From the NCBI GenBank assembly GCA_020848375.1, contig JADLAF010000071.1, positions 1-39,775 of the forward strand: a stretch of 39,775 bases of DNA, read 5' to 3'. This stretch comes from Ignavibacteriaceae bacterium. Its GTDB lineage: Bacteria > Bacteroidota > Ignavibacteria > Ignavibacteriales > Ignavibacteriaceae. This document shows, one piece after another, positions 1,343 to 30,718 of this stretch. The position numbers and the translations under genes were made by a program. Positions within the stretch are counted from its first letter, which is position 1, and each line of letters starts with the position of its first letter. The notes beneath the pieces were generated by a model. It searched no databases. It was not told where the DNA came from and saw only the letters and a program-made list of their open reading frames with translations.

Positions 1343-1365
1343 AGACAATCCGTAAGGAATTGTCT
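1343..1365 (+). promoter_or_regulatory. Hairpin in the leader of cusA
   Basis: AGACAAT (1343-1349) and ATTGTCT (1359-1365) form a 7-bp inverted repeat, extended inward by CC/GG with one bulged A. It sits 30 nt upstream of the cusA ATG. It has no T-tract, so it is not a simple terminator. It may be an operator or an mRNA stability or processing element inside the operon. Confidence 0.3.
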
Positions 1366-1395
1366 ATCCATTTATTAAACTTAAGCAGATTCATC

Positions 1396-4300
1396 ATGAT
1401 TGAAAAAATTATTGACTGGTCGGCTAAAAACCGGTTCTTAGTCATCATCATTTATATACTCCTGACGGCGGCAGGGTTATATTCCCTCTACAATCTGAAT
1501 ATTGATGCAATTCCTGATCTTTCGGAGAATCAGGTCATCGTATATACAGAATGGATGGGGCGTTCCGCTGAAATTGTTGAGAACCAGCTTACTTTTCCTC
1601 TGGTTTCGGCTCTACAGGGTCTTTCCGATGTTAAAGATATCAGAGGCAGTTCCATGTTCGGTATGTCTTTCATCTTTGTCATTTTTGAGGAAGATGTTGA
1701 CCTTAAACGGGCAAGATCGCAGGTACTGGAAAAACTATCATCAATTCAGTCCGCGCTTCCTCAGGGAGCAAAACCGATTCTTGGACCTGACGGCACCGGA
1801 GTCGGGCATATTCTCTGGTACACCCTTCGCGGTGAAAAACATGATCTTGCAGAACTGAGGTCTTTGCAGGACTGGTTTGTTAAACTACGCCTCTCCGCAG
1901 TACCCGGAGTTGCAGAGGTAGCCAGTATCGGCGGATTTGTAAAACAGTATCAGATTATCTTAAATCCGGATAAACTCACTTATTATAATATTGCGCCATC
2001 ACTGGTGACCGCTGCACTCAGGAAAAGCAACAGCGAAGCGGGGGGAAGAATCATAGAAATGACCGATACTGAATATTATATACGCGGTAAAGGATACTTC
2101 ACCGGACTGGATGATCTGGCAAATGTTGTTGTAACAACCCTCCCCGGCGGTCGGGCGGTATATATCAAAGATGTTGCATCAGTTAGTTTTGGAACTGAAC
2201 TGCGGCGCGGTCTTCTTGATGCTGACGGTGAGGGGGAGGTTACGGGCGGAATCATTGTTATGCAAAACGGAGAAAACGCTAAAGAGGTTATTGACCGCGT
2301 TAAGAAAAAAATGGAAGAAATAAAATCCGGACTGCCTGAGGGGGTTTCTATTCATATAGATTATGATCGCAGCGAGCTGATTGTGGCTGCTGTGTCAACA
2401 CTGGAACGCGCGCTGCTCGAAGCGGCTATAACCGTCTCCCTCATGGTTGCTATCTTCCTCCTTCACTTCAGAAGCATCGTAAGAATTCTTATCGAAATCC
2501 CCGTTGCAGTAATCCTATCATTTATTCTGATGTACCTTTTTGATATTACAACAAATATCATGAGTCTGGGAGGCATCATCATTGCAATCGGAGTAATTGT
2601 TGACTCCTCCATTGTTATGGTTGAGAATGCTTACCGAAATATTGCAGCGAAAATAAAAGAAAAAGGCGTCTTATCTGATGCAGATTATAAGGAAATCTCT
2701 ATTAACTCTGCCAAACAGGTCGGGCGTGCCATATTCTTTTCAGAGTTGATGATTTTCATATCATTTGTACCTGTCTTTTTACTCACCGGACAGGAAGGCA
2801 AACTATTTTCTCCGCTCGCTTTCACAAAATCTTTTGTGATGCTCAGTTCAGCAGTCATATCCATTTCTTTAATTCCGGTTATGATGACCTTTCTTATGAG
2901 AGGAAAGTTCAGATCTGAAACGGAAAATCCTGTAACAGGATTTTTCATGAAAATCTATAAGCCGGTAATTCGTCTAGCTTTGAAATACCGCAAGACTGTG
3001 CTTGTAGTGAATATCATTGCACTGCTAACTGCAGTCCCGCTTTATATGAATACCGGATCTGAATTCATGCCATCGCTGGATGAAGGTTCGCTGTTGTTCA
3101 TGCCGGTTACTCTGCCAAATATATCCATAACCGAAGCCAAGAGAATTCTCACCTTGCAGGACAAAATCATCAAATCAGTTCCTGAAGTTGCTTCCGTTCT
3201 AGGTAAAGCAGGGCGCGGAGAAACTGCGACTGATAACGCACCTCTCAGTATGATTGAAACCATAATCATTCTAAAACCTCACGATCAGTGGAGGCCTGGT
3301 ATCACCAAGAATGACATTATCAATGAACTTGATGCAAAATTAAAGCTGCCAGGTGTGAGAAACGGCTGGACTCAGCCGATTATCAATCGTATCAATATGC
3401 TCTCAACAGGAGTACGTTCTGATCTCGGGCTTAAAATATACGGTACAAATCCTGATACTTTAGATTATTACGCAATCAAAGCTGAAAATCTGCTTAAGGG
3501 TGTTGAAGGTATCTCACAGCCGTTTGCAGAAAGAAATCTTGGCGGGCTATATATTGATATTCAGCTTAAACCAGAAGCCAATCGTTATGGCCTTACCTCA
3601 GGCGAGCTCAATTTTATTATTGAATCACTCATTGGCGGAGAAAAGATTTCAGAAGTTTTGAGCGGAAGAGAACGATTCCCGGTAAGCGTTCGTTACTCCC
3701 CTGCTTCGCGTGATGATATTGATGCACTGCGGGATTTACTGATTCCGGTTTCCATAAGCAGCGCAAATAGCAGCAGGTCATCCGGTGGTTCAATTTCCTC
3801 ATCTTCCGCATCAATGGGTAGCATGGGCGGAATGGAAGGAGGTTCGTCTGTAGCGCAAGCCCCGGCACTATCAGTATCAGAGAATGAGTCATCCTCTCTG
3901 CTTACTTCAAATGCATCATCACAATGGGTAAAACTCGGAACTATTGCAGATATATCAATCGTCCCTGGCGCTTCAATGATTAACAGCGAAAACGGATTTC
4001 TCCGCTCTATCGTTTACACAAACGTCTCTGGCCGTGATCTGGGTAGCACGGTTGAAGATGCTGATGAAGTTATAGCAGCCGGCTTAAATCTGCCTGCCGG
4101 ATACACTTACGAATGGGGCGGGCAGTACGAAAATAAAATCAATGCACAGCAACGGCTTCAGTATATAGTTCCGCTTATCCTGGTTGTTATTTTCATGCTT
4201 CTTTATATCACCCTTAGAGACTTTAAGGAAGCATTTGTTGTAATGCTTTCTGTTCCGTTTGCTCTTATTGGCGGTATATTTATGATATATCTGCTTGATT

Positions 4301-4743
4301 ACAATTTCTCTGTAGCCGTGTGGGTTGGTTTTATTGCTCTTTACGGAATTGCAGTAGAAACAGGAGTTGTAATGGTGGTGTATCTTCATGAGGCCCTGGA
4401 CAAAAGAATCAGAGCAGCTCAGAGTGAGGAAAGGGCAGTTACTTCTGCTGATATTTATGAAGCAACGGTAGAAGGTTCGGTTCTCCGCTTAAGACCAAAA
4501 CTGATGACTGTATTCACCAGCATGATCGGGCTTGTACCAATCATGTGGGCAACTGGTACCGGTGCTGATGTAATGAAACCCCTCACTGCGCCGATGATTG
4601 GCGGTCTGCTCACTTCAGCAATTCATGTGCTTATAGTAACGCCGGTTATCTTTATCATGATGAAAGAACACCTGCTTAAAAAAGGCAAACTTACCGTTTC
4701 AAAATTGCATCATGGTGAAAATGATGAGGTTAAACATGCGTAA
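1396..4743 (+). CDS. cusA: CusA/CzcA-family heavy-metal RND efflux pump
   Basis: Inner-membrane proton-driven RND transporter that drives export of Cu(I)/Ag(I) or divalent metals through a tripartite CusCBA-type complex. It is 1115 aa; E. coli CusA is about 1047. Family signatures are the N-terminal helix (IIDWSAKNRFLVIII), VYTEWMGRSAEIVENQLTFP, the TM4 segment with IAIGVIVDSSIVMVENAY (proton-relay Asp), and the late TM motif GIAVETGVVMVVYL followed by RLRPKLMTV (Glu and Lys of the relay). These assign it to the heavy-metal (HME) branch. It has an unusual Ser/Gly/Met-rich insert at about residues 785-838, including SMGSMGGMEGG, in the second periplasmic porter region. ATG 1396 is preferred over TTG 1360 because the family starts at IEKIIDWS. 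Its 3' end overlaps the next gene by 8 bp. No metal sensor gene is in the window. Confidence 0.93.
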   Translation: MIEKIIDWSAKNRFLVIIIYILLTAAGLYSLYNLNIDAIPDLSENQVIVYTEWMGRSAEIVENQLTFPLVSALQGLSDVKDIRGSSMFGMSFIFVIFEEDVDLKRARSQVLEKLSSIQSALPQGAKPILGPDGTGVGHILWYTLRGEKHDLAELRSLQDWFVKLRLSAVPGVAEVASIGGFVKQYQIILNPDKLTYYNIAPSLVTAALRKSNSEAGGRIIEMTDTEYYIRGKGYFTGLDDLANVVVTTLPGGRAVYIKDVASVSFGTELRRGLLDADGEGEVTGGIIVMQNGENAKEVIDRVKKKMEEIKSGLPEGVSIHIDYDRSELIVAAVSTLERALLEAAITVSLMVAIFLLHFRSIVRILIEIPVAVILSFILMYLFDITTNIMSLGGIIIAIGVIVDSSIVMVENAYRNIAAKIKEKGVLSDADYKEISINSAKQVGRAIFFSELMIFISFVPVFLLTGQEGKLFSPLAFTKSFVMLSSAVISISLIPVMMTFLMRGKFRSETENPVTGFFMKIYKPVIRLALKYRKTVLVVNIIALLTAVPLYMNTGSEFMPSLDEGSLLFMPVTLPNISITEAKRILTLQDKIIKSVPEVASVLGKAGRGETATDNAPLSMIETIIILKPHDQWRPGITKNDIINELDAKLKLPGVRNGWTQPIINRINMLSTGVRSDLGLKIYGTNPDTLDYYAIKAENLLKGVEGISQPFAERNLGGLYIDIQLKPEANRYGLTSGELNFIIESLIGGEKISEVLSGRERFPVSVRYSPASRDDIDALRDLLIPVSISSANSSRSSGGSISSSSASMGSMGGMEGGSSVAQAPALSVSENESSSLLTSNASSQWVKLGTIADISIVPGASMINSENGFLRSIVYTNVSGRDLGSTVEDADEVIAAGLNLPAGYTYEWGGQYENKINAQQRLQYIVPLILVVIFMLLYITLRDFKEAFVVMLSVPFALIGGIFMIYLLDYNFSVAVWVGFIALYGIAVETGVVMVVYLHEALDKRIRAAQSEERAVTSADIYEATVEGSVLRLRPKLMTVFTSMIGLVPIMWATGTGADVMKPLTAPMIGGLLTSAIHVLIVTPVIFIMMKEHLLKKGKLTVSKLHHGENDEVKHA

Positions 4744-6031
4744 TTTAATTGTATTGCTTACGATACTTTCAGCCGGACTCAGTGCTCAGCCGCTGAATGA
4801 AATCCTTGATCTGACCTTTAAGAACAACAGTGCATTGCGTTCTTTTGATTACCGTTCAGAAGCAATCAAATCTAAAGCCGGTGCTGCTGGTATATATCCT
4901 GCTCCGCAGATGATGTTTACCATTAACCAGATTCCCTGGCCTGACGGCAATCCGCTCAATGAAGCATATTCGCAGGAGTTGTCCTTTAGTCAGATGTTTA
5001 TGACCGGAGGTAAGCTCGGTGCTATGAGGAGTGCTGAACTCAAAGGAATTCCCCTTGCAGAAGCGCAAAAAAGAGAATATAAGGCAAAGATAGCTTCAGA
5101 GATAACTCAGTCGTATTTCAATCTCTGGGCAATGGATCGGGAGCTTGAATTGCAAAACAGATATAACGCGCTTGTCACACGCCTGATAAATCTAATCAGT
5201 ACGCAGTCATCATCTGGTTACCGCGCTGCTGAACTGATTTCGCTCAAATCTGAATTTGCTGTTTCTCTGATAACGATCAACAAAATGAAGGCCGAAAGAC
5301 GTTCGATGGAGCTCATGTTACTCGGTCAGACCGGAATTTCAGATTCATTACTGAGCGCAGTGGTTCCCATTCTTCAGCCGTCAGATACATTACTAACCAT
5401 CGGAATGGATGCAAACTCAAAGTTGAATCCGCAGCTTTATGTAATGAGCGCGATGGAAGAGATGCTTTCGGCTGAAAAAGAAGCTGTCAGCCGTGGAATG
5501 TATCCTGATCTCATGGCAGAACTGATGTTCATGCGAATGCCTCTCGGTATGCCACTTACAACCAAAACTGATCCTGAAATGATTCATGATCTGGGAAAGG
5601 GTGAAACGGAGTATATGTATGGCCTCAGGTTCAGTTTAACACTTCCATTTCTTCCCGGATACTCGGCAAAGATCAAACATAATGCTGATGAAAAAGCACT
5701 GCAGCGAAGCGCCCTGGCTCTGGAACGCGAAAATATGAGAAAAATGTTTGACCGCGAATCTGCTGCCCTCAGAGAAGAATTCTTTGCAACGGTCAATCTG
5801 ATGCAGTCATACAAAACGGACGTTCTTCCGCTGCTCAGACAGAATATTCAACTGCTCGAAACACTATTTAGCAGCGGCCAGGCGGAGCTTTCCTCATTAC
5901 TGCGCGAAGAAAAAATGTATATCATGAACGAGATGGAAATGCTCGGACTGATAAAAAAAATGCTTTCAATTAAAGCTAAGTATATCCCCTACACTGATTT
6001 TGAACAATTGTCTCAGGAGGGACAGTTATGA
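4736..6031 (+). CDS. TolC/CusC-family outer-membrane efflux channel
   Basis: Outer-membrane factor of the RND efflux complex, 431 aa. It has a signal peptide (MRNLIVLLTILSAGLSAQ) and then two long helical coiled-coil repeats typical of outer membrane efflux proteins (PF02321): LNEILDLTFKNNSALRS near the start, and ERENMRKMFDRESAALREE in the second half. An in-frame ATG lies upstream at 4712, but ATG 4736 puts the signal peptide at the N terminus and has an AGG Shine-Dalgarno-like stretch just upstream. It overlaps cusA by 8 bp and cusB by 4 bp (ATGA), indicating translational coupling. It should form the exit duct for CusA/CusB. Confidence 0.88.
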   Translation: MRNLIVLLTILSAGLSAQPLNEILDLTFKNNSALRSFDYRSEAIKSKAGAAGIYPAPQMMFTINQIPWPDGNPLNEAYSQELSFSQMFMTGGKLGAMRSAELKGIPLAEAQKREYKAKIASEITQSYFNLWAMDRELELQNRYNALVTRLINLISTQSSSGYRAAELISLKSEFAVSLITINKMKAERRSMELMLLGQTGISDSLLSAVVPILQPSDTLLTIGMDANSKLNPQLYVMSAMEEMLSAEKEAVSRGMYPDLMAELMFMRMPLGMPLTTKTDPEMIHDLGKGETEYMYGLRFSLTLPFLPGYSAKIKHNADEKALQRSALALERENMRKMFDRESAALREEFFATVNLMQSYKTDVLPLLRQNIQLLETLFSSGQAELSSLLREEKMYIMNEMEMLGLIKKMLSIKAKYIPYTDFEQLSQEGQL

Positions 6032-7488
6032 AACTTATAAAATTTATATTGCCTCTTTTACTAATATTAATCGCCGGATGCGGCGGAGATGAACCAGCCA
6101 AAACTACTGGCTCATCATATTATTGCCCCATGCATCCTGAAGTAACCTCTGACAGGCCAGGTGCCTGCCCGATCTGCCACATGGATCTGGTTCTAACAAC
6201 TGATACTGAGGGTGCTGAAAATATGATCTCAGGAGATTTCCGTCTTTCTAAAGATGATATTATAAAAGCCAACATCATCACCGCGGAAGTTAAAAAAGGG
6301 AGTATCTCCCCATCATTCAACTTCTCAGGAAAGATTGAAATTCCGGAAGATAACATCCGTATCGTATCGGCCCGATTTTCAGGACGCATTGAATCACTCA
6401 GCGCATCAAGCACCGGTCAGATGCTTTCAAAAGGTTCGCGACTGTTTACAAGTTACAGTGATGAGATGAGCAGATTGTTTAGTGAATACCGGTCGTTATA
6501 TAATTCAGGTTCTGCTGCAAATCAGAATCTGATTAAATCTATGGAAGATCGTCTTTTGCTCAAAGGATTAACCCATGAGCAGATTACCTCTCTCCGGTCA
6601 GCATCATCCGATATATTTGATGTGACTTCACCATTCGGCGGAGTAATTGTTGAAAAGTATATCAGCGAAGGCGAGTATTTCAGTGAAGGCACACGTTTAT
6701 TTAAGGTGGCAGACCTTTCCACAGTATGGGCGGTAGCTGATGTTTATACTGATGCTCTGCCATATATAAAAGTTGGCTCCGCCGCTGAAATCAAAACTGA
6801 ATCTACAGGATTTGTAACCCGTTCAAAAGTTTCATTTATTTCCCCCGTTGTTGACAATGCAAGCAGATCGGTTAAGGTGCGGGTGGCATTGAGCAATAAT
6901 GGCTCACTCAGGGCAAATGACTTTGTAACGGTTACATTTACAGCAGCACAGAAAACCGGTATCACTGTCCCCATTAATGCGGTTGTAAGAACCGGCAACG
7001 AAGATATTGTCTGGATCCAAACCGGTGATGAAACATTTAAACCCCGCCGGGTTCAATTAGGGCAAAGAACAGGTGAGTTTTACTCTGTTATATCCGGACT
7101 TTCGGAAGGTGATAAAATTGTCATCAACGGAGTATATCTCCTTGATTCAGAGTCACGCCTCCGGAATTTTACGGGCACAGATGATTCAGCTCTTCATTCA
7201 GGTCATACTGTTGCAAACCCCAAAAAGAAGAAAGAGGAAAAACCGGAAACTCACAATCATAAAGAAAAAGCTGAGTTTCTTGGAAAAACAAATGACGTCC
7301 CTTTTAATAAAGTCTGCCCTCTTCTGGGGGACGAAGTAGCACCTAACAGTCCTAAAGTGAGGTATAAAGGAAAAATTTGGGGATTCTGCTGCCCTGGTTG
7401 TGACGAAAAATTTATGTCTGACCCTGCTAAATATAGTCAGAATATCTCTGCAGACGGCAAATCATATCTCGGTGTATATGAAGACTGA
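6028..7488 (+). CDS. cusB: CusB-type periplasmic adaptor lipoprotein with two metal-binding domains
   Basis: Membrane fusion protein linking CusA to the outer-membrane channel, 486 aa. LIAGC (Cys18) is a lipobox, so the mature protein is probably lipid-anchored. Residues about 31-57 are a heavy-metal-binding domain (YYCPMHPE, then CPICHMDL: C33, H36, C47, C50, H51). Next come the barrel-sandwich and beta-barrel domains (GKIEIPEDNIRIVSARFSGR, VTSPFGGVIVEKYISEGEY, TVWAVADVYTDALPYIKVG). After a Lys-rich His-containing linker there is a C-terminal YHS/TRASH-like domain at about 426-486 (C430; GFCC at 452-455; C458). Many CusB homologues lack this last domain. A strong AGGAGG Shine-Dalgarno (6015-6020) lies 7 nt before the ATG. 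The same terminal domain recurs in the next gene. Confidence 0.9.
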   Translation: MKLIKFILPLLLILIAGCGGDEPAKTTGSSYYCPMHPEVTSDRPGACPICHMDLVLTTDTEGAENMISGDFRLSKDDIIKANIITAEVKKGSISPSFNFSGKIEIPEDNIRIVSARFSGRIESLSASSTGQMLSKGSRLFTSYSDEMSRLFSEYRSLYNSGSAANQNLIKSMEDRLLLKGLTHEQITSLRSASSDIFDVTSPFGGVIVEKYISEGEYFSEGTRLFKVADLSTVWAVADVYTDALPYIKVGSAAEIKTESTGFVTRSKVSFISPVVDNASRSVKVRVALSNNGSLRANDFVTVTFTAAQKTGITVPINAVVRTGNEDIVWIQTGDETFKPRRVQLGQRTGEFYSVISGLSEGDKIVINGVYLLDSESRLRNFTGTDDSALHSGHTVANPKKKKEEKPETHNHKEKAEFLGKTNDVPFNKVCPLLGDEVAPNSPKVRYKGKIWGFCCPGCDEKFMSDPAKYSQNISADGKSYLGVYED

Positions 7489-22544: not shown

Positions 22545-25500
22545 TTGAAATTGAACCATGAAGCCCTGCGCTTGCAGGGAGAGATAAATAAACTCAAAAA
22601 GTTAATCGAAACAGGAGAATCTGCCTTTAAAAGGAAAGATTTTCTTAACTATCTTGAAGAACTTACCCTGCAGTTAACCACACTTGCTGAGGAGAACGAA
22701 AATCTCAGGGTACTGGTCACCACTTCTCATGATGTTATCTTTCGCCTGTCACCCACTGGGAAACTCATTTATGCCTCCCCTTCAATCAGTCTCCTCCTTG
22801 GTTATACTCCCGAAGAAGCTGTCGGACGGCCTTTTATTGATTTCATCATGGAAAGTGACCGTCGGCGCAGTCTGGTTGCAATTTCAAAGTTTTTTAAGGA
22901 AAAATCAGTTTCCAATTACATAACTCATCTTCTCAGAAAAGACGGTTCAACGGTACCTGTTGAGCTTAACGGGATGATGATGAAGGAAGGGGAAAAATAT
23001 GTAGGTCAGGGGACCATCAGAGATATAACCGACCGCATCAAAGCAGAAAACGAAATTAACCAGGTTGAAAATACTTTTCGTGAAGTTTGGGAGCGATCAA
23101 ACGACGGAATGCGCCTGACTGATGATAATGGAATTGTGGTCATGTGCAATGAAGCTTACGCTGAAATGATGAATTCCAGCCCGACTGAAATAGAAGGGAA
23201 ACTTTTTACCAAGGTATATACTGAGGAGATCCGTCAAAGAGTGCTCGAAACTTATCAGAAGAATTTTGCGGACAGAACTCTCCGAAGCAAATATGAAACT
23301 GAGTTAACCATCTGGGATGGCTCAGTAAAATATCTGGAAATTTCTGCATCGTTTATAGGTTCAGAATCAACCGGAAGAATAATGATTCTTTCCGTCTTCC
23401 GTGATATAACTATCAGAAAAAAACAGGAAGCCCTGCTTAAACGGAGAGATTCATTACTCGAAGGGGTTGCTTCTGCAACAGCTATTCTTCTCTCAGAGTC
23501 CGATACTGACAAAGCACTTCAGACCGCACTTGAGATTCTTGGCAAGTCTGCTTTAGCGGACCGCGTTTATCTTTTCAGAAACTTTGAGGATACGAACGGT
23601 GACCTGAGAGCTGAAGAACTTTATGAATGGACAGCCGAAAATATCCCATCGCAAATTTCATCCCTGCGTAACTATGGTATCAGTTACCAGCATTTTGCGC
23701 CGCTTCAAATGCTCGAGTCACTCAGAAAAAATCAAATCATTCATCACAACGTAAATGAACTGCCGGGAGAAAAAGCTCATCTTTTCCTTGACACCTCAAT
23801 TCAGTCAGTTTTAATTGCACCGGTTTTTGTGAGCGGTACCCTCTGGGGGTTCATAGGGTTTGATACTTGTTTCAGCCCGCGAAAATGGGATGATGCTGAT
23901 GCTTCAGTGATCAGTACTCTGGCTAACTCCATAGGAGCTGTGCTCGAAAGAAAAGACTTTAATGATGAACTGCAGAATAAAAACAAAGCACTGGATAACG
24001 CGTTAGATCAGGCAAATCAGGCGGCGCGTGCTAAAAGTGAATTCCTCGCGATGATGAGTCACGAAATTCGTACTCCGATGAACGGCGTAATTGGGATGAC
24101 AGGTTTATTGCTTGATTCGAACCTGACACGCGAACAAAGAGATTATGTTGACACTATACGTTTAAGCGGTGAGCAGCTTCTTGTTATCATCAATGATATT
24201 CTTGACTACTCCAAAATTGAATCTGATCGTCTTGAAATAGAAAAAATTCCTTTTGACCTGCGAGACTGTATTGAGGAAACACTGGATCTTATGGGTGCAA
24301 AAGCAGGAGAAAAAAGTATTGACCTGCTTTATCTTATGGAAGACAGTGTCCCCCATACCATTGTGACTGATGTTACTCGTCTCAGACAAATCCTGACCAA
24401 CCTAATCGGTAATGCACTGAAGTTCACAGAGAAGGGAGAGGTATTGGTAAAGGTCTCCAGGAATTCTGTCAGTCAAAACATGAATGAACTGCTTTTTATT
24501 GTGCAGGACAGCGGCATCGGAATTCCTAAAGATAAAATGGAAAAGCTGTTTAAGCCATTCAGTCAGGTTGATTCTTCAACAACACGGCTCTACGGCGGTA
24601 CAGGGCTCGGACTTGTCATCAGTAAAAAACTGATTGAACTTCTTGGTGGTAAAATCTGGGTCGAGAGCGAAGAAAGTAAAGGCACTACATTTTTCTTTAC
24701 GCTCCCCGCCGAGTCTGCTCAGGCAAAGCCCAAAATTTTCTCAAGAGTTTTGCAGCAGGGCATTGAAGGCAAACGTGTTCTGATTGTTGATGATAATCTG
24801 ACAAACCGGAAAATTTTGCGGATCCAGACAACCCGATGGGGAATGATATCTGAGGAAGCTGAATCAAGCGTAAAGGCAATCGAAATAATTGAAACCGGTC
24901 AGAAGTTTGACCTGGGGATATTGGACTATCAGATGCCAAATACTGATGGAATAGGACTTACCGAAAAACTTCGTGAATATAACAACGGACGGTTCCCTGT
25001 CATTATCCTTACTTCTATCGGAAGGCGTGAACGTTCAGACGTGCTTGCCCAGCTTAATATCACAAAGTTTTTAAACAAGCCGATTAAGCAGTCCCAGCTT
25101 TATGAAAGCATCGTTCAGTCACTTACCGGCAACCCCACGCAGCAGGAAAAAAAGCCCCGCGGTGCTGTTCTGGATACAGAAATGGCAGACAAACATCCGC
25201 TAAAAATTCTGCTGGCCGAAGATAACCTTGTCAATCAAAAAGTAGCAACCAAGATTTTCGAAAAGCTGGGTTATCGTATTGATATCGCTTCAAACGGAAT
25301 TGAAGTTCTCTCAGCCCTTCAAATGACCGATTATGATATTATTTTTATGGACGTTCACATGCCGGAGCTTGACGGCTTAGAGGCAACCCGTGCAATAAGG
25401 AGCAACGGACCCTCCGCCTATCAGCCCCTGATTATTGCAATGACTGCCAACGCGATGCAAGGTGACCGGGAAATCTGCCTCGCTGCCGGGATGGATGATT

Positions 25501-25979
25501 ACATTAGCAAACCTGTTCGAATTGATGAGCTTCAGATGCTGGTTCTTCGCTGGAGCGAACACATGCGGAAAGAAGCCGCTCCTACTAAGGAAAAGGCGGT
25601 TAAAACTACCGAAAATGAGCCGGTAGTTAATGAACAGGATATGCCTGTCCTTTTAGATATCGAATCAGAAGAAGACCAGAAGTTTGTTTCTGAACTGTTT
25701 GAAATTTACCTGAGCGAAACACCCCGTATGTTGGCCAGTCTGAGAGTTGCATATAGCAATGAAGACTTCAAAGCTATCGCATTTTATTGCCATAAACTGA
25801 GGGGGAGCAGCGCTAGCATAGGGATCACCAAAATCGCCTCCATCAGTGAGGAAATTGAGATGGCTGCAAAGAAAAAGGATATTGACACGATACGAACTTC
25901 TCTGACGGTTCTGGAGAAAACCTTTATTATAGCTCAGGAGGATTTGCTTAGAATCAAAACCCGGCTCGACAGCCGGTAG
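22545..25979 (+). CDS. Hybrid sensor histidine kinase (PAS-PAS-GAF-HK-REC-REC-HPt)
   Basis: 1144-aa cytosolic phosphorelay protein. Domains: N-terminal coiled coil (1-60); PAS1 (about 60-175, [20 protein letters not shown]); PAS2 (about 180-300, [19 protein letters not shown]); GAF (about 310-460); HisKA with [16 protein letters not shown] (His506); HATPase (about 610-735, [33 protein letters not shown]); REC1 (about 747-865, Asp794); REC2 (about 885-1005, Asp936 in [11 protein letters not shown]); HPt (about 1045-1140, His1083 in [13 protein letters not shown]). All phosphorelay residues are intact. There is no membrane segment, so the signal is probably intracellular. It starts at TTG 22545 or TTG 22551; no ATG fits the frame. 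No cognate DNA-binding regulator is adjacent. Confidence 0.92.
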
Positions 25980-26284: not shown

Positions 26285-26770
26285 ATGGGTTACTCACAGT
26301 TAATTCTATTATTAGGTTCTATGGTTCTGCTCGGACTTCTGGGTCTCTCCCAGAATAATTCTCTCAGCAGAAATACAGAATACAATATGTATAATCAGGC
26401 GCTATTTACCGGTACGGGCATTGCCCAGTCATTGCTTGAGGAGGTTTTAAGCCGTGAGTTTGATGAGGTAACGTTAACCCGAATGTTGACAATCCCTGAC
26501 TCATTGACCGCCCCATGGTCATTGGGTAAAGAATCCGGCGAAACTGTTGTCACTACATTTGATGATGTTGATGATTACCACAATTACACTAAAACTGACA
26601 GTCTGGATCTTTTCGGCAGCTTTAACATGCTGGTCACAGTCCATTATATCGTTTCTATGGACCCCGATACGAAAAGTGCAAGCAGAACTTTTATGAAGAG
26701 AGTTGATGTAAAAATGTATAACATATATATCGCTGATACCCTGACGGTAAACGGAATTAAGGCATACTAA
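26285..26770 (+). CDS. PilV/MshD-like minor pilin-type protein without standard prepilin leader
   Basis: 161-aa protein with one N-terminal hydrophobic helix (SQLILLLGSMVLLGLLGLSQ) directly after MGY. The following amphipathic helix has ALFTGTGIAQSLLEEVLSRE, much like the 'LAQ.LLEE' helix of PilV/GspI-type pilins. FDDVDDYHNY is the signature seen in MshD/PilV-type pilins. The canonical prepilin site (G then FTLIE, with Glu at +5) is missing; the only possible leader is MG. No specific family was recognised with certainty. It is first of three tightly spaced genes (4 bp to the next) and starts at ATG 26285. A role in a pilus- or pseudopilus-like surface structure is inferred. Confidence 0.6.
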   Translation: MGYSQLILLLGSMVLLGLLGLSQNNSLSRNTEYNMYNQALFTGTGIAQSLLEEVLSREFDEVTLTRMLTIPDSLTAPWSLGKESGETVVTTFDDVDDYHNYTKTDSLDLFGSFNMLVTVHYIVSMDPDTKSASRTFMKRVDVKMYNIYIADTLTVNGIKAY

Positions 26771-26774
26771 AGTA

Positions 26775-27341
26775 ATGGATCAGCTAATTACCCTGCTTGG
26801 CACCTATTTCATCGGCGGATATATAACACTTACCGTGCTGGTTATGAACTTTACCATGAGCTCGAAGATTACAGAACTGGTAATTGACAAATTCAGCCAG
26901 CAGAGTGCACTCACCACTGCTCAGACTCTGGAGTTTGATCTTTACAAAATTGGTTATGGTTCAACCGGCGATATTATCCTTGTGGCTGATTCTACCCGGC
27001 TGCGTTTTGTGTCTGATATTGACAATAACGGCGCTGTTGATACAATTTTTTATTATAAAGGTGCTGTTTCTGAGATGAGCACTACCGCCAATCCGCATGA
27101 CTTTAAGATATACCGCAGAATTAATACCACTACATCAATAGTTGGTTTCGCAACTGATTTTACGTTTACTTATCTGGACGAAACAACAGCTACCCTCAAC
27201 TACGGTTCTCTCAACAGCCAGGCAAACAGAAACAATATCCGTTTCGTTACAGTTTATTTAAGGACTGAGTCCCCTGATTCAGTAAGTTTCGGATACTCCC
27301 CTGTTGAGTGGAGAAAACAAATTTTACCGAAGAATTTATAA
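26775..27341 (+). CDS. PilW-like minor pilin-type protein
   Basis: 188-aa protein with an N-terminal membrane helix (LGTYFIGGYITLTVLVMN), then a helix ending in QTLEFDLYKIGYGS, which resembles the 'l..DLr.aGyg' segment of PilW/GspJ-type pilins. A mainly beta C-terminal domain follows, including a DIDNNGAVDTIFYYKG strand pair. There is no Gly/Phe prepilin cleavage site and no Glu5. It sits 4 bp after the PilV-like gene and 11 bp before the PilX-like gene, the V-W-X order of minor-pilin operons. The family assignment rests on context plus these helix motifs and is not certain. Confidence 0.55.
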   Translation: MDQLITLLGTYFIGGYITLTVLVMNFTMSSKITELVIDKFSQQSALTTAQTLEFDLYKIGYGSTGDIILVADSTRLRFVSDIDNNGAVDTIFYYKGAVSEMSTTANPHDFKIYRRINTTTSIVGFATDFTFTYLDETTATLNYGSLNSQANRNNIRFVTVYLRTESPDSVSFGYSPVEWRKQILPKNL

Positions 27342-27352
27342 GAGATTAAGTT

Positions 27353-28477
27353 ATGGGTTATACTACAATAATATATATAACTGGTTCTGTGATGCTATTT
27401 AGCATTATGTCCCTGAATGTCAATACAGTTGTTGGCGATCAGCTTTCTCAGTCAGTCAGTTATTATGAGGAAGTTCAGGTTAGAAATCTGTGCAACTCAG
27501 TTACCGAGATGCTGGCTTCATCAGTGTCATCAGATCCGAGCTACCGCAAGAACAGTTATTCAAATCTCTCCCTCTTTAGCGGCTCAGCATATTACCGCGT
27601 GGTGGACACCGTTGTCTCAGCAGATACCCTTGTAAAAATTGAAGTCATTGGATATTTTGGAACAACTCCTAAAGTAACCACCTCTTATTTTTCTGCCCAG
27701 GACACCGAACCTGAACTCCCCCCCCAGTTTAAGTACGCAGTATCCTCACAAGGGAAGCTGAGTCTGGGAGGAAATTCAAAAGTTGTAGATGATGGTGACC
27801 CGACTCTGAATGCGGATGTTTTTGTAACCGATTTAGCACTGGCTGGTAATGCAAATATCAAAGGTTTTGTAAGTTATACCTCTTCTTTTTCGGGCAACAC
27901 AAGCAAGATTACTCCAAACTCAAATCCTTCCGGTCTTCCGGTGACAAGTCATGTCAGCAGTATTTCTGTTCCAACCTTTAAGGCAGAAGACCATCTCTCA
28001 AAGGCAACAGTTAAATACTTTTCGGATGTTACTGTAAAGAACAATACCCTTACTTTAGGCACTAAGGCAAATCCGGCAATTGTTTATATATCAGGGAATC
28101 TCAAACTGCAGGCCAACTCTAAAATAAACGGTTACGGAATGATTATCGTTACAGGGAATGTTGAAATGAACGGAAACACAACATTCGGAACCAATGACCC
28201 GAATGTGAGCAGTCTTGGGATTTACGCAAACGGCAACATTACAGCGAGCGGTAACAACACGTATTATGGCCAGATGTACGCAAATGGAAATATCGAACTT
28301 TCTGGTAATGCAAGCATTCATGGCAGCGTATCAGCAAAAGGAAATATTGAGATGTCCGGTAACAATACCATTGCCTATAAAAAAGGGAATGTTGATTTAA
28401 CAGAAGAAATTTGGGAAACCACAGGCGGTGGAGGTAATTCTATCGAACGGGTCGCCCGGCGACTTTATTATGAATAA
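27353..28477 (+). CDS. PilX-like protein with beta-helical repeat domain
   Basis: 374-aa protein. It starts MGYTTIIYITGSVMLFSIM, a membrane helix with the same MGY opening as the first cassette gene. A helix and a small beta segment follow (about 30-115). Residues about 130-345 form a Gly-Asn-rich repeat region with recurring 'GN(I/L/V)...GN' turns (ISGNLKLQANSKINGYG, VTGNVEMNGNTTF, ANGNITASGN, ANGNIELSGNASIHG, AKGNIEMSGNNTI), as expected for a right-handed beta helix. This layout resembles PilX-like proteins with a C-terminal DUF7305-type polymer-forming domain. It ends the cassette and is followed by a strong terminator. It could be a surface-exposed tip or adhesive subunit. Confidence 0.6.
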   Translation: MGYTTIIYITGSVMLFSIMSLNVNTVVGDQLSQSVSYYEEVQVRNLCNSVTEMLASSVSSDPSYRKNSYSNLSLFSGSAYYRVVDTVVSADTLVKIEVIGYFGTTPKVTTSYFSAQDTEPELPPQFKYAVSSQGKLSLGGNSKVVDDGDPTLNADVFVTDLALAGNANIKGFVSYTSSFSGNTSKITPNSNPSGLPVTSHVSSISVPTFKAEDHLSKATVKYFSDVTVKNNTLTLGTKANPAIVYISGNLKLQANSKINGYGMIIVTGNVEMNGNTTFGTNDPNVSSLGIYANGNITASGNNTYYGQMYANGNIELSGNASIHGSVSAKGNIEMSGNNTIAYKKGNVDLTEEIWETTGGGGNSIERVARRLYYE

Positions 28478-28590: not shown

Positions 28591-28606
28591 CACTAAATCC
28601 GGACTA

Positions 28607-30244
28607 ATGATGCGACAATTTATTATAACTGCATTTCTGCTCTTTGCTGCAGAAGTATTAAGCCAGACGCTCCCCCTGCCTGCCAGACCTGCTAATGCTC
28701 TGTCCGGAAGTCAGATGGTAACGCTGCTCACACCGCTAAATTTAGATGCAAGAGAAAATGAGATTTATAACCAGGTTTTAAGCGGCAATGTACCTGATTT
28801 TATAAGAAACCTGACACAGGTTACCGCTTCAGTCAGCGGGCGAAGTGTGAGTTATTTTGTAATACCAGAATATCTTGCGCTCGGTTCAAATCAGGACTAT
28901 TTCCTCATCCCTATGACCCCCTTGCTGGCTCAAAGAATTGCAAACGCTCTTAACTGTGTGCTCCCCACAAAACGGATGGTGGATCAGATATATACTGCCT
29001 CTTCCTGCAAACTGCGTCCCCAACCGATTCCGCCAACCGCCCAGATGACTACCATACCGGTATTCAAAGATCATAACGATTCAGTCAAATCACTCCGGCT
29101 GCCGCTGCTGAATCAGTATCCTTTTGGCACATTGGTCGGAGGGACAAAGAAGGACGTGATCATTTCCAACAGAATTTATACCAATCTTAATCCCAACACA
29201 CCAAAACCCGTCGTCATCTACGGATGGCATCAGTTAAACGGAAGCCCCATTCAGCCGGTATATAATGGTCATGGTGAAACTTACGCTGACTACAGTCACG
29301 GAATACGCCTGGTGCTTGATTCTTTAATCGTTGACGGTACTTACAAAAAATTCGCTCCTCTGCTCTCTGATGCAGTTCTCTCGGTTGTGATAAGTGATGA
29401 AGGAGTTATCAGCAAACCATATTATACCCTCTCCGGTTCAACTACTCCCCAACCTTCAGTTTTTACTGTAACTTCATTCTCCGGATCGCAGCTTTTGGTT
29501 AAAGCTCCTTTTTCTCCATCTTCAATATATAAAGCATTTTACGGTTCTTCGCCTGCGGGATTGACTGACTCATCAGATTCCTTTACCGATTCCGTCCTCA
29601 TTAGCGGACTCACGGAGGGCAGTATATATTATGTACACATCAGGGCCGCCGGACAGGGGGGGTACTCCCCATTGAGTGAAGTGCTTGCTGCGGTACCTTC
29701 AACTTCGCCGAATTACCTGCTCATAGTAAACGGTTTTGACCGTGCTGTTACAGGCAATACAAATGATTTTGTTAAAATGCACGGTCCGGCTTTTCTTAAT
29801 GCAGGACTACGTTTTGACGGCTGCACTAATGAAGCAGTTACAATTGGAATGATTTCACTTACTTCCTATAAGATTACGGACTACATACTCGGTACAGAAA
29901 GTACTGCGAATGAAACATTCAGCACTGAGGAACAAACTAAAGTTATTGAGTTCCTGAGGGGAGGAGGATATTTTTTTTGCTCAGGTTCTGAGATTGCCTG
30001 GGACCTGGATAACCGCGGAAGTGCATCTGATAAGGATTTCATCCGTCTCTATCTTAAGACACAGTATTTAAACGATGCTCCCGGAGGTCTCGCCAGTACA
30101 TACTACACCGCATCCGGCTTCCCCGGAGAAATTTTCAACGGAGTTAATAATATAACTTTTGACAACGGCACTCACGGCACTTTTAACGTGGGGTATCCCG
30201 ATGTCCTTCAGGGGATAAACGGGGGCACAAATGTAATGCAATAG
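28607..30244 (+). CDS. Secreted Fn3-containing protein, 5' part, ended by premature TAG
   Basis: 545-aa exported protein. It has a signal peptide (MMRQFIITAFLLFAAEVLSQ). An N-terminal domain of unknown function (about 25-265) includes VIYGWHQLNGSPIQPVYNGH and ETYADYSHGIRL. A fibronectin type III-like domain follows (about 275-365). The next domain (about 370-545) has YLLIVNGFDRAV, STANETFSTEEQ and FLRGGGYFFCSGSEIAWDLD, as in Bacteroidota secreted proteins often labelled xanthan lyase-like. The frame stops at TAG 30242-30244 right after GGTNVMQ, but the same frame continues open into a matching domain end and T9SS tail (next entry). The original protein was probably about 703 aa. As it stands the product lacks its export tail. 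In-frame ATG 28496 lies in the preceding terminator hairpin, so it is not used. Confidence 0.75.
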   Translation: MMRQFIITAFLLFAAEVLSQTLPLPARPANALSGSQMVTLLTPLNLDARENEIYNQVLSGNVPDFIRNLTQVTASVSGRSVSYFVIPEYLALGSNQDYFLIPMTPLLAQRIANALNCVLPTKRMVDQIYTASSCKLRPQPIPPTAQMTTIPVFKDHNDSVKSLRLPLLNQYPFGTLVGGTKKDVIISNRIYTNLNPNTPKPVVIYGWHQLNGSPIQPVYNGHGETYADYSHGIRLVLDSLIVDGTYKKFAPLLSDAVLSVVISDEGVISKPYYTLSGSTTPQPSVFTVTSFSGSQLLVKAPFSPSSIYKAFYGSSPAGLTDSSDSFTDSVLISGLTEGSIYYVHIRAAGQGGYSPLSEVLAAVPSTSPNYLLIVNGFDRAVTGNTNDFVKMHGPAFLNAGLRFDGCTNEAVTIGMISLTSYKITDYILGTESTANETFSTEEQTKVIEFLRGGGYFFCSGSEIAWDLDNRGSASDKDFIRLYLKTQYLNDAPGGLASTYYTASGFPGEIFNGVNNITFDNGTHGTFNVGYPDVLQGINGGTNVMQ

Positions 30245-30718
30245 AGCAGTGTTACTTCCCAATTTGCCGCTACCGCTTATGCAGGAATGCTCCCCGGCGG
30301 ATCTCTGCCTGGAAGAGTTATAGTTATGGGCTTCCCCTTTGAGGCAGTCTATCCGGAGGCAAAACGGAATGAAGTTGCTGGTAAAATTGCACAATTTTTT
30401 GGGACATCAACAGATATTTTCTCCGATGAATTATCAGACTCCCCATCCGGATATTCAATCAGCTCTTATCCGAATCCTTTTAATCCAACGGTTACCATAG
30501 AGGTAAAAGTTGATGTGGAGGGATATTACGCAGTTACGATATATACCATGCTCGGAGAGGTGGCTGATCTGCTCTATGATGGATTTCTGCTGAAAGGTGA
30601 CTATTCCTATCAATGGAATCCATTTAACGGCACAACCAGATCACCTTCAGGAGTTTACATAGCAACATTGAGCGGAGATGGTATCCTTAAAACCCAAAAA
30701 ATGTGTTTAATAAAATAA
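30245..30718 (+). pseudogene. 3' part of the same gene: domain end plus T9SS sorting domain
   Basis: Same reading frame as the upstream part, directly after the TAG. It completes the previous domain (SSVTSQFAATAYAGM, then GRVIVMGFPFEAV, the usual end of that domain) and adds a T9SS type A sorting domain (SSYPNPFNPTVTIEV to PSGVYIATLSGDG and a final KMCLIK). The first usable ATG is at 30287. That short ORF would have no signal peptide, so it cannot be exported on its own and is best read as the detached tail of a broken gene. Confidence 0.75.

Follow-up and report, generated by a model that had tools for sequence, protein, structure and literature searches.

Leaderless minor pilins of an Ignavibacteriaceae bacterium as probable tip subunits of a proposed type IVa pilus that needs no prepilin peptidase

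Introduction

How could pilin-like proteins that begin directly with their membrane helix serve a filament whose subunits are thought to require removal of a leader? This question is raised by three adjacent genes, here called V, W, and X, in the 39,775-nucleotide contig JADLAF010000071.1 of an Ignavibacteriaceae bacterium (assembly GCA_020848375.1); this whole stretch of DNA is referred to below as the window. Two features, the class III signal peptide and the dedicated prepilin peptidase, are treated as universal for type IV filaments, Nanoarchaeota being the sole group named without a detectable peptidase (review, PMC4471445). A first-pass annotation of the window had read the trio as part of a divergent pilus or pseudopilus with an unusual leader or no processing at all, or as a lineage-specific surface filament. 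Our analysis indicates that V, W, and X are probably the priming or tip minor pilins (GspI-GspJ-GspK-like) of a type IVa pilus with leaderless subunits that need no prepilin peptidase. The proposal of a divergent pilus with an unusual leader or no processing fits this outcome, in that a leader is impossible and an A24-type peptidase was not found in the genome.

Results

V, W, and X leave no room for a leader

The three open reading frames (ORFs; Table 1) stand in tight tandem, as first described, with gaps of 4 bp between V and W and 11 bp between W and X. V and X start with MGY and W with MDQ, the sequences AQSLLEE, FDDVDDYHNY, and LEFDLYKIGYG and the GN-rich tail of X are all present as claimed, and the prepilin peptidase site G-[FY]-x3-E is absent from all three proteins. 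An in-frame stop codon lies 3 codons upstream of the start of V, 1 codon upstream of that of X, and at most 8 codons upstream of that of W, inside the end of gene V. Because these stops sit 1 to 8 codons upstream, a hidden leader is ruled out for V, W, and X. Among their relatives, the median distance to the upstream stop is 3 to 4 codons. Hence the class III signal peptide, defined as a leader of 6 to 26 amino acids (aa) ending in Gly and followed by a mature Glu5, is not present in these subunits.

The trio is kept elsewhere. Related loci hold 60 distinct V-W-X trios in this order, with 97.5% of the gaps at 60 bp or less, a count that shows conserved order and not an unbiased frequency since the loci were picked by homology. 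Relatives of V were found in 57 of 61 genomes of the same family, often two to four per genome. The supposed invariance of the MGY start did not hold up: Gly occupies residue 2 in 26% of V, 40% of W, and 65% of X relatives and in 98% of the relatives of the major-pilin-like proteins described below. The conserved trait is the lack of a leader rather than MGY itself. An acidic residue occupies precisely position 5 after Met in 28 of 68 W relatives, as it does in mature conventional pilins. In one related locus (L048), an ORF of 686 aa opens as a V-like minor pilin and continues beyond it, perhaps representing a minor-pilin fusion.

Predicted folds and profiles point to minor pilins

AlphaFold2 models of V and W, built from alignments of their relatives, reached predicted local distance difference test (pLDDT) values of 88.9 and 91.0. 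Each consists of a long helix (residues 3 to 55 in V and 2 to 57 in W) and, after it, an antiparallel sheet. The result that had been named as speaking against a pilin identity, namely, models without the pilin fold, did not occur. In a re-alignment of candidates from the PDB, W aligned solely to TTHA1219, XcpW, EpsJ, and GspJ (Z scores of 10.6 to 12.8; next row, 2.9). The best rows for V were XcpV/GspI (7.8), GspI (7.7), and EpsI (7.2); its six highest rows contain nothing but pilins and pseudopilins, with a best Z below 8, and unrelated rows score 5.5 or less. The sequence profile of W finds TTHA1219 as well (E value, 0.029; residues 3 to 72), while the corresponding PDB search with V returned no matches. 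X was assigned from its sequence: its profile matches ComZ (6qvi; E value, 7.8e-5), the expected DUF7305 domain scores over the curated cutoff (E value, 1.8e-7), and DUF2572 is matched at an E value of 7.9e-6. The profiles of V and X match each other at their N-terminal part. Compared with canonical pilins of the class, the W profile gave a weak match and the V profile none, and Pfam and NCBIfam scans of V and W yielded nothing credible.

The assignment to PilV/PilW/PilX (GspI/J/K) made in the first-pass annotation is therefore backed by the predicted folds of V and W and by the profile matches of W and X. It is supported that V, W, and X are PilV/GspI-, PilW/GspJ-, and ComZ/PilX-like putative minor pilins, V less strongly than W. 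That they might instead be secreted proteins processed by LepB was considered and dropped: the N-terminal helix is unbroken to residue 55 to 57 in the V and W models, and no ordinary signal-peptide cleavage region is apparent.

The pilus machinery lies on another contig of the same genome

The remark that no major pilin, ATPase, or peptidase is nearby is correct within the window, but for the pilin and the ATPases it does not extend to the genome, where they sit on contig C189. This contig has four leaderless major-pilin-like genes, starting MGQQQLLLIVLG..., followed in order by genes for T2SSF (PilC), T2SSE (PilB), a second T2SSE (PilT), PilM- and PilO-like proteins (labels that rest on gene position only), a secretin, a response regulator, and a sensor kinase. 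The platform protein matches T2SSF at an E value of 2e-26 and the two traffic ATPases match T2SSE at 1.2e-100 and 1.1e-34. The closest solved relatives are PilB for the first ATPase (5.6e-85), PilT (2ewv) for the second (1.2e-67), and PilQ (3jc8) for the secretin of 426 aa (3.7e-12). Gene order is identical in the machinery of G155, a genome of the same genus assembled in one contig of 4.2 Mb. Three of the four tandem pilin-like paralogues on C189 (locus L060) are about 90% identical and one is divergent; they may be used in alternation or together as major subunits. That the trio might be an orphan with no machinery was dropped as an explanation since the machinery is present on C189.

The window trio is assigned to the C189 pilus mainly because, in other genomes, the trio sits inside that operon. 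In Candidatus Kryptonium (L121), the order is M-PilC-PilB-V-W-X-PilT-PilM-PilO, with M denoting the major-pilin-like gene; in a member of the Calditrichaeota (L138), it is M-PilC-PilB-V-W-X, and similar operons with the trio inside occur in other Bacteroidota (L193 and L196). Inside their leaderless pilus operon, Bacteroidota of other classes also encode a conserved 170-aa protein, in round numbers (KKFLKEPPLLLKNFHYEDVLEFLELG).

One may ask whether the window copy is a decayed or idle duplicate that the C189 pilus does not use. It lies far from the machinery, a second trio is found on contig C236 of the source genome, and the neighboring gene, which encodes a cargo protein of the type IX secretion system (T9SS), has an in-frame stop. 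Yet all three ORFs are intact and their neighborhood is kept in G155 (L038). Relative to this genome, V, W, and X show 82, 71, and 66% identity and 0.13, 0.19, and 0.25 nonsynonymous substitutions per site (dN), with synonymous sites saturated. Because dN is low against saturated synonymous change, purifying selection is indicated, although the saturation makes the ratio of the two rates indicative only. We consider an idle duplicate very unlikely.

A leaderless family that probably provides the major pilin

In many relatives, the trio is adjoined by a protein of 125 to 150 aa starting MGQQQLLLIVLGVIIVGI. From its operon position, size, copy number, and N-terminal helix, this GQQQ family would be the major pilin. 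The M-G start is found in 148 of 151 distinct relatives, and the upstream in-frame stop lies at a median of 4 codons and within 10 codons in 141 of the 151. Because the first set of loci had been chosen by the motif GQQQLLLI, loci found by profile alone were read too. These come from many families of the class and the phylum, including peptidase-positive genomes, and their pilins start almost throughout with MGQQQ, MGTQQ, MGSQQ, or MGNQQ; in a few of the ORFs, a possible start codon farther upstream adds a short extension.

Glu5 is absent from the major pilins, since the first 26 positions are free of acidic residues in 201 of 207. Gln5 (counting Met), on the other hand, is found in every sequence of the first major-pilin alignment and in nearly all V sequences. 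The major-pilin and V profiles align start to start over residues 1 to 20, a match that is suggestive only (E value, 0.0016; probability, 16%). Neither Pfam nor NCBIfam has a model that matches the major-pilin family or V and W. PF07963-like pilin models miss the GQQQ family because they describe the leader-proximal segment with Glu5.

The frequent Gly at residue 2 (98% in major pilins and 65% in X) invites comparison with Gly-1 of prepilins and hence a different explanation, namely, that M-G is a two-residue leader cut by an unrecognized non-A24 peptidase, leaving Gln, Tyr, or Lys at mature position 1. We regard this as unlikely: Gly2 is missing from many V and W proteins, a recurrent gene for a dedicated peptidase was not seen in the operons read, and known leaders have 6 to 26 residues (Berry and Pelicic, PMC4471445).

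Most genomes with leaderless pilins have no recognizable prepilin peptidase

In the source genome, a search with PF01478, the A24 prepilin peptidase family, gave nothing at an E value of 10, whereas 12 of 14 control genomes were positive. Across the class, PF01478 scored over the cutoff in 16 of 391 genomes and in none of the trio's own family, single-contig G155 included. Leaderless pilins are encoded by 213 of the 391, among them all 16 peptidase genomes, which leaves 197 with a leaderless pilin and no A24 peptidase. Outside the class, in a survey that did not take in Calditrichaeota, the peptidase is missing from 52 of 59 pilin-positive genomes.

Where a peptidase exists, it appears to serve something else. 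A canonical G|FS(L/M)xEL pilin stands beside it in 9 of the 10 peptidase loci read (L062 to L071; in L068, no such pilin was seen near the peptidase within the stretch read), and these loci mostly also carry a further ATPase-like gene. PF07963 scores over the cutoff in 14 of the 16 peptidase genomes versus 10 of the 375 others and in neither the source genome nor the rest of its family. Because the canonical pilin adjoins the peptidase and PF07963 co-occurs with it, the peptidase, where present, belongs to a separate conventional system. The GQQQ pilins are unchanged in peptidase-positive genomes. A minority of class genomes thus has a second, conventional type IV filament locus with an A24 peptidase, a pilin of the G|FSLTEL type, and, probably, an ATPase of its own.

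These data also bear on the simplest objection, that this is a type IV pilus of the usual kind whose pilins have a conventional leader, its starts having been miscalled and its PilD missed as incomplete or divergent. The source genome is a draft, 88.75% complete, and peptidase genes often lie away from pilus loci (PMC6668835). However, in almost all homologues, in-frame stops within a few codons upstream exclude a leader, and PilD is missing also from the near-complete one-contig genomes G155, G119, G416, G437, G469, G499, G549, and G558, while the identical search does detect it in 16 genomes of the class. We find this explanation hardly credible.

Neighboring genes

Directly upstream of the trio lies a gene for a large hybrid histidine kinase with PAS and GAF domains, two receivers, and an Hpt domain. 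The order of kinase, trio, and cargo gene is the same in the sister genome (L038), and the kinase is a possible regulator. The gene downstream has an in-frame TAG at 30242-30244, with the frame open beyond it. Its sister counterpart, which ends in a T9SS sorting tail, reads through this position; a nonsense change and an assembly error are both possible. Farther away, the window contains a heavy-metal efflux operon of the resistance-nodulation-division (RND) type.

Table 1. Positions of the trio and of other features mentioned in the text (window coordinates unless a locus is named)
Feature	Position	Strand	Basis
V, PilV/GspI-like putative minor pilin, 161 aa, leaderless (MGYSQLILLLG...)	26285..26770	+	ORF, model, PDB alignments
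W, PilW/GspJ-like putative minor pilin, 188 aa, leaderless (MDQLITLLG...)	26775..27341	+	Model, PDB alignments, sequence profile
X, PilX/ComZ-like putative minor pilin, 374 aa, leaderless helix and probable beta-solenoid-like C-terminal region	27353..28477	+	DUF7305, DUF2572, ComZ profile
DUF7305 region of X, residues 221-342, Gly-Asn-rich repeats	28013..28378	+	hmmscan
Hybrid histidine kinase	22545-25979	+	
T9SS cargo gene with in-frame TAG	28604-30718	+	
Sister counterpart of the cargo gene	L038:9589-11688		T9SS sorting tail
CusA/CzcA-type RND efflux operon with outer-membrane and HlyD-type partners	1360-7488	+	
Possible minor-pilin fusion, 686 aa	L048:7123-9183	+	
Four major-pilin-like paralogues	L060 (G000:C189:21419-24054)		
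Conserved protein of about 170 aa	L194:3719-4234, L196:12437-12943, L197:11582-12085, L200:1386-1901, L202:1595-2101		

Discussion

How might such a pilus be made? In the route that we propose, the nascent N-terminal helix would insert with its N terminus inside via the signal recognition particle (SRP) and Sec. Methionine aminopeptidase removes the initiator Met when residue 2 is small, and this ordinary enzyme would act on those subunits with a suitable residue, such as the Gly found in 98% of major pilins. The resulting N terminus would be directly competent for assembly, so that PilB and PilC could polymerize GQQQ subunits on a V-W-X tip, with PilT retracting the filament and PilQ providing its exit. 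Neither N-methylation nor pairing of Glu5 with the N terminus would be expected; our guess is that the invariant Gln cluster, with Gln5 (counting Met), supplies a polar contact in place of Glu5. The presence of several trios per genome, here those of the window and of C236, suggests exchangeable tips with different binding surfaces used by one machine.

Alternatively, the genes might specify a leaderless pseudopilus or a secretion or competence machine that never forms long surface pili. V, W, and X do resemble the tip pseudopilins GspI/GspJ of the type II secretion system (T2SS) as well as Thermus TTHA1219 and ComZ, and the secretin is short at 426 aa. Against this stand the retraction ATPase and the secretin of the cluster, which are closest to PilT and PilQ, respectively, and the four tandem major-pilin paralogues. 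We hold such a machine to be a doubtful though not negligible possibility.

Several points weigh against a peptidase-independent type IVa pilus. The pilus is known here from genes, its assembly into a filament and the true N termini of its subunits being predicted. The GQQQ protein is a presumed major pilin, and its profile matched neither canonical pilins of the class (hhalign E value, 0.055) nor geopilin (E value, 0.91) significantly. Foldseek searches with the V and W models gave nothing under an E value of 0.3, the structural matches having emerged when its candidates were re-aligned, and the Z of 7.8 for V falls where a common arrangement can score. Residue 2 of V is small in just 54% of cases and often is Asn or another residue disfavored by methionine aminopeptidase, and the expected acidic residue 5 is missing from the window W and from part of its family. 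The incompleteness of the source genome also counts here, as does the fact that the absence of the peptidase rests on one profile family, A24, which a peptidase of another kind would escape. We nevertheless continue to favor a leaderless type IVa pilus with V, W, and X at its tip.

The idea of a lineage-specific filament proved too narrow, as the system spans Ignavibacteria, Kryptonia, other Bacteroidota, and Calditrichaeota. It seems likely to us, though less so than the assignment of the trio, that Ignavibacteria, Kryptonia, several other Bacteroidota lineages, and some Calditrichaeota make type IVa pili of pilins that are born mature, with no leader, peptidase, N-methylation, or Glu5 and with an N-terminal Gln cluster as a different contact between subunits. 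Because a class III signal is lacking and no dedicated peptidase was recognized, the system is set apart from plain members of the type IV filaments. The open-licence literature yielded no description of pilins made without a leader or of pili independent of a prepilin peptidase, which is weak evidence of absence.

If correct, pilin maturation would have a second solution, and type IV filaments could no longer be said to carry a class III signal peptide universally. What leader cleavage, N-methylation, and Glu5 are needed for would become testable, and large groups of environmental bacteria would gain pili that are now unannotated there. In the genome of Melioribacter roseus, Kadnikov et al. 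found pilT, pilQ, pilB, and pilC and neither pilA nor pilD (PMC3534657); the GQQQ family would supply the pilin missing from this account.

Among known systems, the type IVa pilus shares the assembly and retraction ATPases, the platform protein, and the secretin (closest to PilB, PilT, and PilQ), as well as the predicted GspI/GspJ-type minor-pilin folds and the operonic gene order. It differs in that here the pilins are leaderless, the major pilins have no Glu5, and most genomes have no prepilin peptidase gene. GspI-GspJ-GspK of the T2SS (XcpV-W-X) share the gene order and the predicted fold of V and W; unlike these pseudopilins, the present proteins lack a class III signal, PilT is present, and no T2SS-specific gene was recognized in the cluster. 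In Thermus thermophilus, TTHA1219 resembles W in profile and fold and the C-terminal part of ComZ resembles X in profile, but both Thermus proteins are conventional prepilins that are cut by PilD. Finally, a locus without a prepilin peptidase gene is shared with mannose-sensitive hemagglutinin (MSH) pili. Peptidase-free MSH loci, however, occur in genomes that do have a peptidase, provided by another system (Denise et al., PMC6668835), whereas most of the genomes considered here have no recognizable one.
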